Assembly: GCA_900473795.1 (NCBI GenBank)
Contig: UCMT01000024.1
Span: 1-64,000 of the forward strand
Origin: Hyphomicrobiales bacterium
GTDB taxonomy: Bacteria > Pseudomonadota > Alphaproteobacteria > Rhizobiales > Rhizobiaceae
Direction of reading: 5' to 3'
Length of the DNA: 64,000 nt
Shown: one piece after another, positions 56,056-64,000 of the stretch
Layout: the number at the start of each line of letters is the position of its first letter
Position numbering within the stretch: position 1 is the first letter of the stretch
Translations under genes and position numbers: made by a program
The notes under the pieces: generated by a model
Databases searched by the model: none
What the model was told of the DNA's origin: nothing
Seen by the model: the letters and a program-made list of their open reading frames with translations, nothing else

Positions 56056-56130
56056 GCTGCTATAGCTCAGGGGTAGAGCACTCCCTTGGTAAGGGAGAGG
56101 CCGAGAGTTCAAATCTCTCTAGCAGCACCA
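56056..56130 (+). tRNA. tRNA-Thr (anticodon GGT)
   Basis: 75 bases including CCA. Acceptor GCTGCTA with TAGCAGC; anticodon stem CTCCC/GGGAG with loop TTGGTAA; T arm AGAGTTCAAATCTCT. It could serve as an integration site; no duplicated end was found downstream in the window. Confidence 0.97.
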
Positions 56131-57002: not shown

Positions 57003-57504
57003 ACGCAACAAGTTTTGCGCAACTGGTAAAACTACCAGTCGATCGTCAGGATTTTCTGAGCGTCCTGAGCGGGACCGGTTCGGTTTTGCGCACGCCGCCT
57101 CCCGCCTGCCTGCTTGACCGGCGAGAACCAGCAATGCCAGAGTAGTGATATCAATAAGTGGCGATCCAAGCAGAGGCGTATCCCTCGAATGTGCTTTCCT
57201 GCCTATAAGTCATCGATATCCTGCGTTGACCAATGTCTCAAAATTGCGTGCTTTGGTAGTAAATGGTAAAAGAATACGCGGCAAGCGCGGGGCGACTCGC
57301 CATCGCCCCTTGACCAAGTCGTTGATGACAGCGAGATTTCACGCACGTCTGCGTGGTCGAGCGGCATTGACGGTAACACTTTCCGCGATAGTTCTGAATT
57401 AACTGGCAGCTGGAATAACATGAGGCACCCAAATGTGATGCAATCTCAGGTAGATTCGTGCAAGTACTGCTTGGATGGTACACAACAGCAGGGAGAAGGC
57501 GAGA
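57003..57504. other. Intergenic stretch after the transposase remnant
   Basis: About 500 bases with stops in all frames and no convincing gene. It may hold further decayed insertion-sequence sequence that I could not align, and the promoter of the GGDEF-EAL gene. Confidence 0.4.
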
Positions 57505-59172
57505 ATGCGGGACGCTGATAGGACGTTGTCTGCTTCATCTTCGGTGGAACGTTATTCCTTCACGCAAAAAGACGAGCTCATCTCGCTCTACGACGAGAGC
57601 TTTCATCTGATCGATTGCTCGCCAAGGCACAGCAAAACATACATTATCGACTCTTTGGTCGACGCAACCCTGTGGCACGTCTATCCCGGGCTCCTGCCCC
57701 CCCAACCCAAGTCGGCTGTAGAACTCGTGCTTGCGAGCGGCGTGCCGCGGAACGTCGAAATTGCAGATGCAACAACCAGAGAGCGCCTCGCCCTGCTCAT
57801 CTTTCGCACGGCCCGCGGCATCGGGGTCGTTGAAATGGAGGGCAACGCGACCTACCGCAAGGCGTCAAGCGACAGCGACCGGGCGCTTCTCCTTCATCAG
57901 GCAACCCATGATGTTCTGACGGGATTGCCAAACCGCCGTCAATTCAGCGATCAGTTGCGGGGCACTCTGCCAGTGCCGAACGGGGCGAAGCTGGCCCTCA
58001 TGCAAATAGATCTTGATGATTTCAAACCGATCAATGACACGTTGGGCCATGGCGCGGGCGATGCCGTTCTCAAAATGGCGGCAGAGCGAATAAGGAACGT
58101 GCTTGGGGAGCGAGAAGTCGCCTACAGGCTGGCGGGCGACGAATTTGCCGTCATCCAGTGGAAAGTCGACCAGCCTGGAGAGGCGGAGCGCTTGGCTGAT
58201 GCGGTCGTCAAGGCCTTCAAGGAGCCGTTCACGGTCGAGGGCATCAATGTCTTCGTCGGCGCAAGCGTCGGCATTGCCGTCGCCCCTGGCGATGGAAACG
58301 AGATCGAGCAGTTGATGAAGGCCGCTGACATTGCGCTCTACGCGGCAAAGAAAGATGGGCGCGGTCTCGCGAGGACGTTCAGCCGCGCCATGCTGATCGT
58401 CCTGGAGCAGCGCGAAATGTTGCGCCGCAGCTTGCGGACTGCGCTGCAAGACGGGCAGTTCTTCGTTGAGTACCAGCCACTCGTGAGATTGCCCTCTTCG
58501 ATTGTAGGCTTTGAAGCGCTCTTGCGATGGCGTCATCCCATCGTGGGCCTGATCCCGCCGAGCGTCTTCATTCCCATGGCCGAGTCCGACGGCCTGATGA
58601 GCGAAATCGGGCAATGGGTGCTGGAGCAGGCCTGCCGAACGGCGACGACATGGCCCGCCCATTTCACGGTCGCCGTCAATCTTTCTTCGGCGGAGTTCTT
58701 GCGTGAAGGTTTGACGGATCGGGTCGCTCAGACACTCGATGCGGTCGGTCTGCGCGCCGATCGCCTCGAACTCGAAATCACCGAATCCGTGCTGCTGGAG
58801 CGAACGACGAACAATCTGGATAACCTCTATACGTTGAATGTACTCGGCGTTCAGATTTCACTCGATGATTTCGGAACCTATTATTCCTCTTTGAGCTACC
58901 TCAAGAATTTCCCTTTCGACACGATCAAGATCGACAAATATTTTATCAAGGATCTCGAGAGCGACGAGAAGAGCCAGACGATCGTCCGGTTTGTCATCGC
59001 ACTCGCCCATGGCCTGGGAATGCGTGTTACCGCCGAGGGCGTGGAGACGCGAGGCCAAATAACATGGCTCCAGAAGGAGGGATGCGACCAGTTGCAAGGG
59101 TATTTCCTGGGCGTCCCGATGCCCGCGGCAGCGATCGACGAATTCCTTCGCCAGTCTTCGTTAGCACTTTAG
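57505..59172 (+). CDS. GGDEF-EAL cyclic-di-GMP enzyme
   Basis: 555 residues, cytoplasmic, with an N-terminal PAS-like region (about 15-115), GGDEF domain (about 135-300) and EAL domain (about 315-550). The cyclase site reads RLAGDEFAVI, so AGDEF replaces GGDEF, a variant that often stays active. The EAL residues look complete: FEALLRWRHP, VNLSSAEF, LELEITES, DDFGT, IKIDKYF, AEGVET; the loop after DDFGT has YY instead of GY. Bifunctional synthesis and hydrolysis is possible. AGAAGG precedes the ATG. It ends 162 bases before the next operon and might be co-transcribed. Confidence 0.92.
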   Translation: MRDADRTLSASSSVERYSFTQKDELISLYDESFHLIDCSPRHSKTYIIDSLVDATLWHVYPGLLPPQPKSAVELVLASGVPRNVEIADATTRERLALLIFRTARGIGVVEMEGNATYRKASSDSDRALLLHQATHDVLTGLPNRRQFSDQLRGTLPVPNGAKLALMQIDLDDFKPINDTLGHGAGDAVLKMAAERIRNVLGEREVAYRLAGDEFAVIQWKVDQPGEAERLADAVVKAFKEPFTVEGINVFVGASVGIAVAPGDGNEIEQLMKAADIALYAAKKDGRGLARTFSRAMLIVLEQREMLRRSLRTALQDGQFFVEYQPLVRLPSSIVGFEALLRWRHPIVGLIPPSVFIPMAESDGLMSEIGQWVLEQACRTATTWPAHFTVAVNLSSAEFLREGLTDRVAQTLDAVGLRADRLELEITESVLLERTTNNLDNLYTLNVLGVQISLDDFGTYYSSLSYLKNFPFDTIKIDKYFIKDLESDEKSQTIVRFVIALAHGLGMRVTAEGVETRGQITWLQKEGCDQLQGYFLGVPMPAAAIDEFLRQSSLAL

Positions 59173-59334: not shown

Positions 59335-59850
59335 ATGCATGTAGCCGAAAAAGAGCCGGAAGCAGCCTTCGAGCCCTTGCTTCAGCTTGAGATGGAGATG
59401 GGAACCTTTCTTTCGGATTGGCACCATTGCGATCAGTTGTCTACCTTCGTGGCCCGGATGATCAGTCACAACCGGACAGATCCTGTTCGCCATTCGAACT
59501 TCTTTTCATCGGCGCTCAACGAACTCCTGGAGGTCTTGTTTCGCGGTGGCTCTCCCGACGGTCAGATCGGCTGTGCAGTCTATCGGCACGGTCCGACGGA
59601 ACGGGTGAAACTGACGTTCCCATGCCCTCCGCGCCAGCGGCATTTTCTGAATGAAGCTGTGGCGAAAGCGCGCCGGGGGGACGCACTTGCGCGCTATCTC
59701 GATTCCATTTCGACCGACCAGGCACCAACCCGGGATGCCGTTCTCCTGGACCTCACGATCAACTTCGACGCTCTGATTCACCTGGAAGACAGCGCTCCCT
59801 CGTCGATAACGCTCGTTGTGGATTTGCCGCTTGAAGGAATTGTGACTTGA
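59335..59850 (+). CDS. Degenerate GHKL/RsbW-like protein
   Basis: 171 residues, soluble. It aligns by eye with the kinase at 63386: SNFFSSALNELLEVLFRGG matches the N-box region VGYLTNELIENAVKF, and HFLNEAVAKARRGDALARYL matches FQHLLSEITTGDPGDLLLER. The Asn that binds Mg-ATP is replaced (ELLEV), and the glycine-rich ATP lid seen at 143-150 of the kinase is missing, so catalysis is unlikely. A scaffold or decoy role is inferred. GAAGGAAACGGC precedes the ATG at 59335. The next gene overlaps by four bases. Confidence 0.75.
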   Translation: MHVAEKEPEAAFEPLLQLEMEMGTFLSDWHHCDQLSTFVARMISHNRTDPVRHSNFFSSALNELLEVLFRGGSPDGQIGCAVYRHGPTERVKLTFPCPPRQRHFLNEAVAKARRGDALARYLDSISTDQAPTRDAVLLDLTINFDALIHLEDSAPSSITLVVDLPLEGIVT

Positions 59851-61025
59851 GTTCGGTAAACCCTCCCGCTCCCTTCAGGGCAGAGTTCGACGCCAACAGC
59901 CAAGAGTTTTCTCTTGCCGGCGTGGTTCGACCGCGTTCGATCGACGAGATCGCAATGAGCATATCGATGCTGAAGGAGGCGATCGAAGAGGTGCGCGGCG
60001 TCCTCTACATCAATGTGAAGCGCCTCATTCAAATGAACAACACCGCTTTTCACGCCTTTGTGCGGGTGGTTCTCGATGCCTGCCGGGCGCGGTCGGATCT
60101 TCGCTTCGTGATCATCACCTCGAGCGTCGTCGGTTGGACCACACGGATGTTTGCACATCTGAACAAGCTCGAGCCGCAAATAACCGTCGAGGTCTACGAC
60201 TCCAAATTCTACCCTGGCCAGAACTTCGTGGAAAACACGAGCTTTATTCCCATACTGCGCACGCAAACCAAGATGACGTGGCGCCACGAGCGCACAATCC
60301 TTCCTCGTCACGGCATGCGCCCCGGAATCGTGATGGCGGACATCTGCTGCGGTATCGGTGATTTCGCCGTGCTCGTCCAAAAGGAGTTCCAGCCGGCGCG
60401 AATTGTGGCGCTCGATCATTCGAGGGCAAGTCTTGCTTATGCGCGCGACGTGGCAGCCGGTTTCGGTATCACCGATATCGAATATACCTATGGCGACGCA
60501 TCCGAGATGTTGCTCGAGGACAATCAGTTCGACTTGGTGAGCTGCCGTCATTCGCTGCAGATATTCAATCGGCCAGACGTGCTGCTCGGGGAGCTTTACA
60601 GGATTTGCAAGCCCGGCGGGCGGGTGTACGTAACCAACGAGAAAAACTCGCATTGTCTCGGCGAGCCTCGATCACAGAGCATTCAATGGACGTATAACGA
60701 GGTCGCGAAACTGTTCAGCCATTTCGAAATGGATGTGGAGCTAGGCCCCAAAAGCCGCCGGTATCTCGCCGACGCCGGCTTCGAAGACATCATCGTCGAG
60801 TCATTCATGGTCACCAATCTGGACGGCGACCCGCGGGACTTCGCCGACGTCATCATGGCCTGGGAAAATGTCTATGCCGGCGAAATGGCCGTGAAGCGTG
60901 GAGATGGTGCTGAATTCATTCAGCGCTTCCGCCAAGGTTTCCAGGACCATATCTTCGCTGCCCTCCATCCCAAAGGCTATGCCGGCTGGCCGATCTGGGT
61001 GGCGTCGGGACGTAAGCCTCAATGA
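59847..61025 (+). CDS. STAS-like domain fused to a SAM-dependent methyltransferase
   Basis: 392 residues from a TTG start, supported by GAAGGA eight bases upstream and by the TTGA overlap with the previous stop. Residues about 5-115 look like an anti-sigma-antagonist STAS-type domain: FDANSQEFSLAGVVRPRSID, then VLYINVKRLIQMNNTAFHAF, with a Thr where such proteins are phosphorylated. Residues about 150-390 are a class I methyltransferase with motif I at about 163 (ADICCGIGDFAVLV), the acidic residue in RIVALDHS, and RPDVLLGELYRICKPGGRVY typical of UbiE-type enzymes. The methyl acceptor is unknown. Its stop overlaps the next start (ATGA). Confidence 0.82.
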   Translation: MSSVNPPAPFRAEFDANSQEFSLAGVVRPRSIDEIAMSISMLKEAIEEVRGVLYINVKRLIQMNNTAFHAFVRVVLDACRARSDLRFVIITSSVVGWTTRMFAHLNKLEPQITVEVYDSKFYPGQNFVENTSFIPILRTQTKMTWRHERTILPRHGMRPGIVMADICCGIGDFAVLVQKEFQPARIVALDHSRASLAYARDVAAGFGITDIEYTYGDASEMLLEDNQFDLVSCRHSLQIFNRPDVLLGELYRICKPGGRVYVTNEKNSHCLGEPRSQSIQWTYNEVAKLFSHFEMDVELGPKSRRYLADAGFEDIIVESFMVTNLDGDPRDFADVIMAWENVYAGEMAVKRGDGAEFIQRFRQGFQDHIFAALHPKGYAGWPIWVASGRKPQ

Positions 61026-63382
61026 ACGCACCTCTGCACCACACCCCCCGTCTTGGCCTGCGCTCATTCCGCGCCAAGTTCGTCCTTGTCGTTGGCGGCG
61101 CCGTGCTGTTCGATCTGCTCGTCAGTGGCGGCCTTGCACTCTGGAACGTCCAGAGGCTCTCGCGCGATGCCACGGCGGAGGTGGGCCAAGGGTTGGAACG
61201 GGCCAACCAGGACTACATCCGCTCCTACGCGGAAACGACAGCGGCCCGCGTCAATCTGCTGCTGGCTCAGGTCCATTCCGATGTCGGCACTCTGGCCGGC
61301 GTCCTGCAGGCGCAGATCGACCATCCGGCAAGGGAGGCCCAGATCGGGGAAGCGATGGTCCGCGGCGCCCCCGAAGCGGTTAACGTCGTCTATGATGAGA
61401 AGGGGCGATGGGCGCAGAATCGACCTGGACCTCTCTCCGTTGTCAGCGTCTGGGGATATCTTCTCGATTCAAATCATAAGCCGCTTCCCAAAGTTCAGGC
61501 GGAGATCGAAAACAGCGCCGTCCTGGACCTCGTCGCGCCGAGCCTGCTGGCAAACGGTCAATCGAAGCTGCAGATGTATTATATAGGCCCGAGGGAACGG
61601 CCGATCTTCAGGACAGCGCCTTATACGAATCAGGCCCAGACGTTCGACAGGCTCTATCCGGGGCACAACGAGGCGGACTTCTGGACCTTCTTCTTCCCGG
61701 GTCTTTACGAGTCGTGGCAACAGTGGGCTCAGGATCCAGGCCTGCGCCCGGTAAGCAACGACATTACCCAAACGGCACCGTACACGGACGCGATCACCGG
61801 CAAGCTCATCGTCAGTTTCTTCCGGCCGCTGTGGACCGGCGATCGCAAGGGCGTGGCGGGTGCCGCCGGCGCGGATATTACGCTCGATCAGCTGGCCGAA
61901 ATCGTCGAGAATGTCAAAGTGGCCGATAACGGTTTCGGTTTCCTGACGATGTCCGACGGCAATGTCGTCGCCATCAACCCGGTCGGAGAGAAGGTGATCG
62001 GTCTTCGGTCATCGAGCGCCGCGAACAGCGAAGGCGTGACCGGTCTCGACCGCTCTCTGCGCAGGAGCGCACAGCCGCAGATCGCGCAATTGCCGTTGGA
62101 TCAGGACGGCTCATTGCAACACATAATGCTCGACGAAAACGGCGAGAAGGTACCCTACCTGGTCGTCTTGAAGCAGCTACAGCCGACAAACCTGTGGGGA
62201 TCCGGCCCTGTTGGGCGCGAAACCATGTCGCTTGGCATCGTCGTGCCCGAACGCGAAATCTATGCCTCCCTGTTTGCTGCGCAGGCGAAAATCTCAGAGG
62301 CCACGAACCGGATCCTGGTCTACCAGATCCTGGCGCTGCTCGTATCTCTGCTTTTCGTGATTAGCGCGGTGTTCGCGATATCCAAGCGGATTACCGGCGG
62401 CATCAGCGCGCTCGCCGGTGCAGCCAAGCGCATTCAGCTCAAGGACTATTCCGTCAGGGTTGATATACCGAGCCGCGACGAGGTCGGCGAGGCCGGCGCC
62501 GCCTTCAATCGCATGGCGGAGCAGATCAGTTTTCATACCGAGAATCTTGAACAGCTGGTGGAGGATCGCACGCGGGAGATCGAAGAGGCGAACCTGCAGA
62601 TCTCGGCATTGAACACGCAGTTGCGCAGCGAGAATTTGCGTCTCGGCGCGGAACTGGACGTCGCCCGCCGCATCCAGATGATGGTCCTGCCCAAGGCTGG
62701 CGAACTCCAGGAAATCAAGGACATGGAGATTGCAGCCTACATGCGGCCCGCCGATGAAGTCGGAGGCGACTACTATGATGTACTCAAAGATGGTGAGCGC
62801 CTGAAAATCGGCATCGGCGATGTCACCGGGCATGGCCTGGAGAGCGGCGTATTGATGTTGATGGTGCAGTCGGTTGCGCGGGCTCTGCAGGAAGCGGGCG
62901 ACATGGACCCGTCGCAATTCCTCAATTCCGTAAACCGTGCCATCTACAAGAATATTGTCAGAACCAACACCAACAAGCATCTGTCCCTCGCCTTCCTGGA
63001 CTATGAGGAAGGACGCCTGACGCTTTCCGGCCAGCACGAGGAGCTCATCGTGGTTCGGAAGTTCGGCCTGGTGGAGCGGATCGACACCCTTGATCTCGGT
63101 TTGCCGATTGGCCTGGAAGCGGATATCTCGGCATTCGTGGCCACTCGGGAAATCGCGTTCGGCCATGGTGATATGATCATTCTTCACACCGACGGTGTCA
63201 CGGAAGCAGAGAACCGGGACGGCGAGCTTTTTGGCATAGAGCGGTTGTGCGAGAGCGCGCGGCGGCGATACGGGCGAAGCGCCGAAGACGTCAAATTGGG
63301 AATCATCGAGGATCTGATGGCACATATCGGCACACATAAGATTCACGACGATATCACTCTCGTTGTCATGAGACACAGGTGA
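61022..63382 (+). CDS. Cache-HAMP-PP2C membrane phosphatase (SiaA/RsbU-like)
   Basis: 786 residues. First membrane helix at about 20-41, a large periplasmic double-Cache sensor (about 45-425), second helix at about 430-453, HAMP (about 452-506), a coiled coil (506-545) and a C-terminal SpoIIE/PP2C phosphatase (about 560-786). All metal ligands look intact: GGDYYD, GDVTGHG, HTDGVTEAEN and DDITLVVM. Such enzymes dephosphorylate STAS antagonists in response to an outside signal, as SiaA does. It is translationally coupled to the methyltransferase gene and four bases from the kinase gene. Confidence 0.93.
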   Translation: MNAPLHHTPRLGLRSFRAKFVLVVGGAVLFDLLVSGGLALWNVQRLSRDATAEVGQGLERANQDYIRSYAETTAARVNLLLAQVHSDVGTLAGVLQAQIDHPAREAQIGEAMVRGAPEAVNVVYDEKGRWAQNRPGPLSVVSVWGYLLDSNHKPLPKVQAEIENSAVLDLVAPSLLANGQSKLQMYYIGPRERPIFRTAPYTNQAQTFDRLYPGHNEADFWTFFFPGLYESWQQWAQDPGLRPVSNDITQTAPYTDAITGKLIVSFFRPLWTGDRKGVAGAAGADITLDQLAEIVENVKVADNGFGFLTMSDGNVVAINPVGEKVIGLRSSSAANSEGVTGLDRSLRRSAQPQIAQLPLDQDGSLQHIMLDENGEKVPYLVVLKQLQPTNLWGSGPVGRETMSLGIVVPEREIYASLFAAQAKISEATNRILVYQILALLVSLLFVISAVFAISKRITGGISALAGAAKRIQLKDYSVRVDIPSRDEVGEAGAAFNRMAEQISFHTENLEQLVEDRTREIEEANLQISALNTQLRSENLRLGAELDVARRIQMMVLPKAGELQEIKDMEIAAYMRPADEVGGDYYDVLKDGERLKIGIGDVTGHGLESGVLMLMVQSVARALQEAGDMDPSQFLNSVNRAIYKNIVRTNTNKHLSLAFLDYEEGRLTLSGQHEELIVVRKFGLVERIDTLDLGLPIGLEADISAFVATREIAFGHGDMIILHTDGVTEAENRDGELFGIERLCESARRRYGRSAEDVKLGIIEDLMAHIGTHKIHDDITLVVMRHR

Positions 63383-63385
63383 GCG

Positions 63386-63946
63386 ATGACGACCTTATAT
63401 GGATTGGCAGACCTGACGATCGAAACGGGCGAACATGTCACACGACTTCGCCTGTTCGAAGGACCACTGGATCTCAGCTTCAAACACTGCGCGATCACGT
63501 CGGATTTTGTCGCAGAGTTCGTCGCCTTGCGCTACCGGGCGTCCCGCAGTCTCTACAGAGAGGTGCGCCACAACGTTGGCTACCTGACCAACGAGCTGAT
63601 AGAAAATGCCGTGAAATTCCGTGTGGGCGGTGAAATTCTTGTGGAGGCCTCGATCGAGGCCAACACCTTTCGTACAAAGGTCTCCAATTTCATCGACAAG
63701 ACAGCGGCCCAGCAGTTCCAACATTTGCTTTCAGAAATCACGACCGGCGATCCCGGAGACCTTCTTTTAGAACGGATCGAAGCGAATGCAATGCATGTGA
63801 GCACGACCACTTCAGGGCTTGGACTTCTGACGCTCATGAGCGATTATGGTGCTCACTTTGCGTGGGTTTTTGGTTCCAGGGAACAGGACAGCAAAATCCC
63901 GCTGGAAACCTATGCGTCTATCACGGTCCCCGACATCTCGAACTGA
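63386..63946 (+). CDS. GHKL/RsbW-type serine kinase (slr1658-like)
   Basis: 186 residues. N-terminal beta-rich part (1-50), helix with the N-box NELIENAVKF (about 70-79), and a glycine-rich segment SGLGLLTLMSDYG (about 143-155). These are the boxes of anti-sigma-factor kinases. I recognise it as like the family named after Synechocystis slr1658, which is found next to slr1659-type STAS proteins. It should phosphorylate the STAS protein encoded just downstream; a sigma or other partner is unknown. AGGTGAGCG precedes the ATG. Confidence 0.82.
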   Translation: MTTLYGLADLTIETGEHVTRLRLFEGPLDLSFKHCAITSDFVAEFVALRYRASRSLYREVRHNVGYLTNELIENAVKFRVGGEILVEASIEANTFRTKVSNFIDKTAAQQFQHLLSEITTGDPGDLLLERIEANAMHVSTTTSGLGLLTLMSDYGAHFAWVFGSREQDSKIPLETYASITVPDISN

Positions 63947-63958
63947 TGGGCACACAAC

Positions 63959-64000
63959 ATGGAAATCAAGGACGAAGAATATCGCGTCTGGTCGGAAGAC
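63959..64000 (+). CDS. Start of a STAS-like antagonist (slr1659-like), cut by the window end
   Basis: Only 14 codons are visible, reading MEIKDEEYRVWSED. This matches the beginning of slr1659-type proteins, which are STAS-domain partners of slr1658-type kinases. It lies 12 bases after the kinase stop. The short piece is weak evidence alone, but the context makes it likely. Confidence 0.6.
   Translation, partial: MEIKDEEYRVWSED

Follow-up and report, generated by a model that had tools for sequence, protein, structure and literature searches.

A probable rhizobial bgrRSTUWV operon in which a degenerate kinase/STAS pair is joined to a putative methyltransferase

Partner switches of the RsbU/RsbW/RsbV and SpoIIAB/SpoIIAA kind work by the logic of a phosphatase, a kinase and a STAS antagonist. 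Among other described modules, SiaABCD of P. aeruginosa was published without a second kinase/STAS pair and without a methyltransferase; for slr1658/slr1659 of Synechocystis, the accessible text of PMC7555055 reports Pgr5 as the top overexpressed protein upon loss of slr1658, and no output of the pair was found in the parts of the literature examined. A further system is the bgrRSTUWV operon of S. meliloti (Baena et al. 2019, Environ Microbiol 21:3379, as cited in the accessible parts of PMC7647112, PMC8457831 and PMC8546604). As far as the accessible text of these sources goes, the phosphorylation of BgrV is under the control of BgrU and BgrW, which thereby act on the DGC BgrR in the synthesis of mixed-linkage glucan (MLG) (PMC7647112), and the partner switch BgrSTUWV modulates BgrR (PMC8457831).

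The window analysed here spans the initial 64 kb of a 250.7-kb contig from a 6.39-Mb genome, and the operon lies on the forward strand. The sequence-only reading had proposed an operon of five genes with overlaps or short gaps; all five are real, and gene calls together with Pfam and NCBIfam matches bore out their domains and spacing, but a sixth gene, the first of the operon, had been overlooked. It lies 162 bp upstream of the others on the same strand (nt 57475–59172) and encodes a GGDEF-EAL protein of 565 aa (Pfam GGDEF 148.7 bits, EAL 239 bits), the ortholog of BgrR, whose catalytic motifs AGDEF and EAL are intact; these two and a DDFGT motif are present in all 96 loci bearing the gene, this one included. 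It is followed by a BgrS-like pseudokinase, hereafter S (nt 59335–59850; 171 aa), with a GHKL fold of the SiaB/SpoIIAB/RsbW kind lacking the N-box Asn and the G2 loop, and by a BgrT-like STAS-methyltransferase fusion, T (nt 59847–61025; 392 aa), which starts with a TTG codon and comprises a STAS part (residues ≈10–116) and a class I SAM methyltransferase part (residues ≈140–392). The BgrU-like membrane phosphatase, U (nt 61022–63382; 786 aa), shows a dCache-like sensor part (dCache_1 35.8 bits, under the Pfam cut-off of 45), a HAMP domain at residues 453–502 (43.3 bits, cut-off 25) and a SpoIIE/PP2C domain at residues 591–785 (134.6 bits, cut-off 25), the four PP2C motif patterns being present in 97, 97, 96 and 97 of 97 loci. 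The last two genes encode a BgrW-like GHKL Ser/Thr kinase, W (nt 63386–63946; 186 aa), with N-box Asn74 and the SGLGLL loop intact, and a BgrV-like STAS protein, V (63959–64306 of the contig; 115 aa), carrying NSSG with Ser61; of the latter, only nt 63959–64000 (14 codons) fall in the window, the gene being complete on the contig (L001:9960-10307). The S/T junction (nt 59847–59850) and the T/U junction (nt 61022–61025) are both 4-bp overlaps, whereas gaps of 3 bp and 12 bp separate U from W and W from V, respectively. W was assigned to the slr1658 superfamily (NF047703, 167 bits) and V to the slr1659 superfamily (NF047705, 137.6 bits), both above the cut-off of 100. The earlier proposal of a partner-switching operon is supported. 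Searching the PDB sequences with the kinase profile gave no match below E 0.7.

The segment is almost certainly the rhizobial bgrRSTUWV operon. Across the window and the contig the genes follow the order DGC, S, T, PP2C, kinase and STAS, which is that of the letters R-S-T-U-W-V, and all six occur together in the same order on pSymB of S. meliloti 1021 with 76–87% identity, L136:8857-10524 being taken as bgrR. In S. meliloti 4H41 a single PF07228 (SpoIIE) gene was found at E 1e-5, counting only SpoIIE-type PP2C, and it is located in the operon, in keeping with BgrU as the operon's phosphatase of this type. We take bgrR to be SMb20447 and the bgr operon to be the one that has been termed hexacistronic. 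The equation with the published operon follows from the gene letters and from the accessible statements of PMC7647112 and PMC8457831. Hence the sequence-only reading, in which no described system of this layout was known, has to be corrected: the layout is that of bgr, and a c-di-GMP output has been reported in the accessible text of the same two papers. The likeness to S. meliloti extends to an MLG synthase ORF, also present in this genome, whereas lineage and flanks differ. Here a tRNA-Thr gene (GGT; nt 56056–56130, 1.3 kb upstream of the operon) and murA are found upstream, and a frame of >2,170 aa, which we read from its sequence as type I polyketide synthase-like (PKS), begins 1.2 kb downstream at contig position 65485. 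Among the best 80 named loci, murA and PKS at 96–100% occur only in L052, L053 and L078; Rhizobium giardinii H152 and R. herbae HU44, ranked in the scan as the nearest named relatives (T 96%), both share murA and the PKS. As a side observation, the BgrS ortholog of S. meliloti RCAM1750 (L137:9462-9980) bears the annotation 'ubiquinone biosynthesis methyltransferase UbiE', and no methyltransferase domain was found in S here; the label was probably carried over from the neighbouring T. A few genes away from the RCAM1750 operon there are also an AraC-type regulator and SDR/galE genes (L137:14094-21149), which we presume to be the cuxR/arabinose-polysaccharide region, likewise c-di-GMP-responsive.

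When compared with the other switches, U scored 133 bits against the SiaA equivalog, far from its cut-off of 700, and DUF1987, the family of SiaC, was not found at E 1 among the Pfam matches of two stand-alone STAS proteins; V is instead of the slr1659 type. W and V are members of the Synechocystis families, whereas S and the STAS part of T fall below their cut-offs. The Rsb and SpoIIA switches share with our locus the phosphatase, kinase and STAS antagonist logic and the fold of S, but here a c-di-GMP enzyme and a methyltransferase are added and the operon holds no sigma factor. Control of an alternative sigma factor, as by RsbU/RsbW/RsbV, would account for the same three kinds of protein; it is hardly credible given that none of the six genes encodes a sigma factor and that in S. 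meliloti the switch acts on the DGC BgrR, according to the accessible part of PMC7647112, and it was rejected.

The S and T pair is very probably a diverged duplicate of a W/V-type pair that has lost the parts needed for phosphorylation. S had no Pfam match at E ≤10 and only a weak slr1658 match (26.1 bits), and residues 10–113 of T matched slr1659 with 35.5 bits, both under the cut-off of 100, so that, judged from these profiles, S and T-STAS are diverged relatives of the two superfamilies and not members by cut-off. The N-box Asn is absent from S in 97 of 97 loci and kept in W in 97 of 97; W carries the SGLGLLT loop in 94 of 97 loci and V the NSSG motif in all 97. The phospho-Ser position of T is occupied by N, A or M in 94 of the 97 loci (Asn65 in the T studied here) and by Ser in the three others (L043, L098, L108), and a Thr adjacent to this position is present in many loci. 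Structure prediction gave a GHKL fold for S, closest to the anti-sigma-type STAS kinases SiaB, SpoIIAB and RsbW. For T, a STAS-like order of strands and helices was predicted over residues 10–116, with block mean pLDDT of 90–95 (residues 11–90) and 74–87 (residues 91–120), and the T profile aligned to stand-alone STAS proteins over 97 columns (E 1.6e-7). Since nearly all structural matches of T are to its methyltransferase part, the STAS fold rests on the profiles and on the predicted secondary structure, which agree with the STAS fold earlier proposed for residues 1–115. The earlier suggestion of two kinase/STAS pairs, the second altered and tied to a methyltransferase, is likewise upheld, the same two subfamilies being matched by both pairs and the phosphorylation residues being lost in S and T.

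T is probably an active methyltransferase. Pfam methyltransferase families exceed their cut-offs (e.g. Methyltransf_25, 63.8 bits, cut-off 27), methyltransferase motif I is present in 96 of 97 loci, with a Leu variant in the remaining one, and among ten partitions of the operon the methyltransferase shows the strongest conservation, with a mean pairwise identity of 0.84 over 70 loci. In the same loci the mean identities were 0.78 for PP2C, 0.77 for EAL, 0.72 for both Cache and GGDEF, 0.70 for V, 0.66 for W, 0.65 for T-STAS, 0.57 for S and 0.36 for the N-terminus of R. Two other identities of T were considered and rejected, namely UbiE/MenG (60.2 bits against a cut-off of 216 and 58.1 against 158.35) and a phage gene (four phage records, ≈30% identity across about one third of the protein). 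T was also found in 120 plasmid records, of which the 60 listed are 1.5–2.5 Mb replicons of Sinorhizobium and Ensifer.

T was searched in 199 family genomes (E ≤1e-10), of which 37 matched: 22, our genome included, carry the T fusion (in G131 split over two contig ends), and in the other 15 only part of some different methyltransferase aligned. When V and S were each searched in the 199 genomes, exactly the same 22 were retrieved, V never occurring without S and T. Twenty-three family loci were mapped, 20 complete and three cut by contig ends, and S-T-U-W-V stand in this order in all 20 complete ones. The five genes are equally in order in 80 of 80 named loci, these being the best 80 of 264 relatives and biased to close ones; the L121 phosphatase matched in two pieces, yet is one open frame. 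Outside the family, T occurs in three of 384 class genomes, all of a single genus, with the five genes in order and no adjacent GGDEF-EAL gene. Family, named and outside loci were all found through T, and the family and named sets overlap, 97 of the 104 analysed loci being distinct by the C-terminus of S. The co-occurrence expected by the sequence-only reading is thus observed in all 20 complete family loci and all 80 named ones, and the arrangement is no chance one. No experiment linking T to the switch was found in the parts of the literature examined, as would be expected were S and T remnants, with T a housekeeping enzyme and its STAS part a dimerisation module unconnected to the switch; such a view is very improbable given the presence of V in 22 of 199 family genomes, always with S and T, and the gene order kept in 20/20 family, 80/80 named and 3/3 outside loci, even if all of these were reached through T. 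Separately, a simpler slr1658/slr1659 set was seen in another class (L152:4488-8193), composed of a kinase, a STAS protein, a PBP-like solute-binding protein and a SpoIIE phosphatase with 46% identity to U over 307 residues; neither S nor T had a match on this 16-kb contig.

Taken as a whole, we are fairly confident that the operon is the known switch extended by a methyltransferase branch blind to phosphorylation. A signal, presumably perceived by the Cache domain of U, would control its PP2C domain; V would be dephosphorylated by U and phosphorylated by W, and its phosphorylation state would set the activity of the c-di-GMP enzyme R, as reported by others for S. meliloti. S and T-STAS, with the ATP-site residues and the phospho-Ser lost, would bind each other without phosphate exchange. 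S would most likely hold T through T-STAS, and free V, or W, might compete for this contact, a competition we propose only tentatively. One signal would thereby set c-di-GMP and gate a small-molecule methyltransferase. The connections among S, T, W and V, as well as the control of methylation by an outside signal, are what we infer from these features. Alternatively, T might be a fixed competitor of V for W, the unphosphorylatable T-STAS sitting on W when V is phosphorylated and S acting as a chaperone or expression partner. A permanent competitor would be expected to lack the phospho-Ser, as T-STAS does in 94 of the 97 loci, and the rate covariation of T-STAS is 0.32 with W and slightly less, 0.26, with S; together with the values for S/V (0.22) and W/V (0.18), it does not single out the S-T pair. 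This arrangement is nonetheless unlikely, in view of the presence of S in 22 of 22 T-bearing family genomes, of its 4-bp overlap with T in 90 of 104 loci (starts placed by script) and of its predicted STAS-kinase fold, unneeded for a mere expression partner.

The sensor and the C-terminal half of T have a history of their own. The tree of a mosaic stretch formed by the C-terminal half of T (nt 60387–61025) and the Cache part of U (nt 61022–62311) differs from those of both flanks. Over 78 loci, the trees of T 181–392 and U 1–430 conflict with each other in only 1/23 and 1/43 of the splits with SH-aLRT ≥90 and with the rest of the operon in 7/23 and 26/43, whereas the two operon flanks show fewer conflicts with each other (9/36 and 7/42). 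Two sets of Mesorhizobium loci (6 and 14, chosen from the Cache clusters), with two clearly different alleles, differ from each other by more than the variation within each set in the mosaic stretch only. The downstream border of the exchange is sharp and falls just before HAMP, and the crossovers on the upstream side scatter across T residues ≈200–320. Rate covariation over 70 loci was highest between the T methyltransferase and Cache (0.59, the next of the 45 pairs reaching 0.38). The plain reading of these sequences is homologous exchange of the sensor by recombination, with crossovers in the conserved T gene; a functional pairing of methyltransferase and sensor is possible as well. The shared history of T 181–392 and U 1–430 and their top covariation are also what one would see if the methyltransferase made or destroyed the ligand sensed by the Cache domain, S and T then forming a feedback loop and not an output. 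We deem such a loop improbable, because T and Cache are neighbours on the DNA, and crossovers spread over T ≈200–320 are the hitchhiking expected when Cache is exchanged.

As regards the outputs of the switch, 79 of the 80 named loci have a GGDEF-EAL gene immediately upstream and in the same orientation (in L073 it is on the opposite strand), and bgrR is seen at the locus in 15 of 20 complete family loci, i.e. in 15 of the 22 operon-bearing genomes. The candidate for BgsA, the MLG synthase, was the pSymB ORF L155:23372-25642, chosen not by annotation but by its place, by its HLHY stretch and by a Q..RW motif. The HLHY stretch has been reported for BgsA in the accessible part of PMC5567048. Our genome carries this candidate with 85% identity to the pSymB ORF (G000:C44:11872-13842). 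It occurs at ≥67% identity in nine of 199 family genomes, all nine having the operon and bgrR, other matches reaching 34–42%, and it is absent from 13 of the 22 operon-bearing genomes and from all 177 others (Fisher p 4e-10, uncorrected for kinship). Six of the 15 family genomes with bgrR do not have it, so that MLG would not be the only output.

bgrR is not found at the locus in seven family genomes (five complete loci and two cut by contig ends) and in the three outside ones, and none of these ten carries the BgsA candidate. A marker for the BgrR N-terminus, detected in five of six positive controls, was found in none of the ten, which suggests that bgrR is absent elsewhere in them too. In a quick tree search with T, a branch with SH-aLRT 100 separates the eight complete loci lacking bgrR from all the others; hence a single gain or loss of bgrR suffices. 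Nine of the ten genomes carry, upstream of the operon and divergent to it, a second SpoIIE-type phosphatase of 308–327 aa in the five with a listed frame (e.g. L044:10146-11126, L050:4941-5864 and L138:5616-6578); none was found at E 1e-4 in the tenth (G178, L048). With S, T and V confined to the same 22 of 199 genomes, bgrR present in 15 and BgsA in nine, the methyltransferase is the more constant output, and T would have a job of its own, independent of glucan and bgrR. We thus put forward, as a tentative model, that bgr is a two-output switch. Its constant and perhaps ancestral output would be a methyltransferase rather than c-di-GMP, and the phosphorylation-dead pair gating this enzyme would read out the live one through competition; the c-di-GMP enzyme would have been gained or lost once, and the sensor swapped among rhizobia, partly together with the C-terminal half of the methyltransferase.

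This kind of operon has already been described. What a specialist might not know is the degeneracy of the S-T pair, its constancy and the exchange of the sensor, of which no description was found in the literature searched, a body that excludes most subscription journals and the primary bgr paper. Many nitrogen-fixing rhizobia carry the operon, among them the genetically tractable S. meliloti. For the sister clade that lacks bgrR at the locus, the prediction is a phenotype independent of the c-di-GMP enzyme BgrR. Should S and T gate the methyltransferase, a description of the switch as a c-di-GMP/glucan regulator misses half of it, and the operon would offer a clear example of how a signalling pair can, after duplication, become a clamp that holds an enzyme without regard to phosphorylation.
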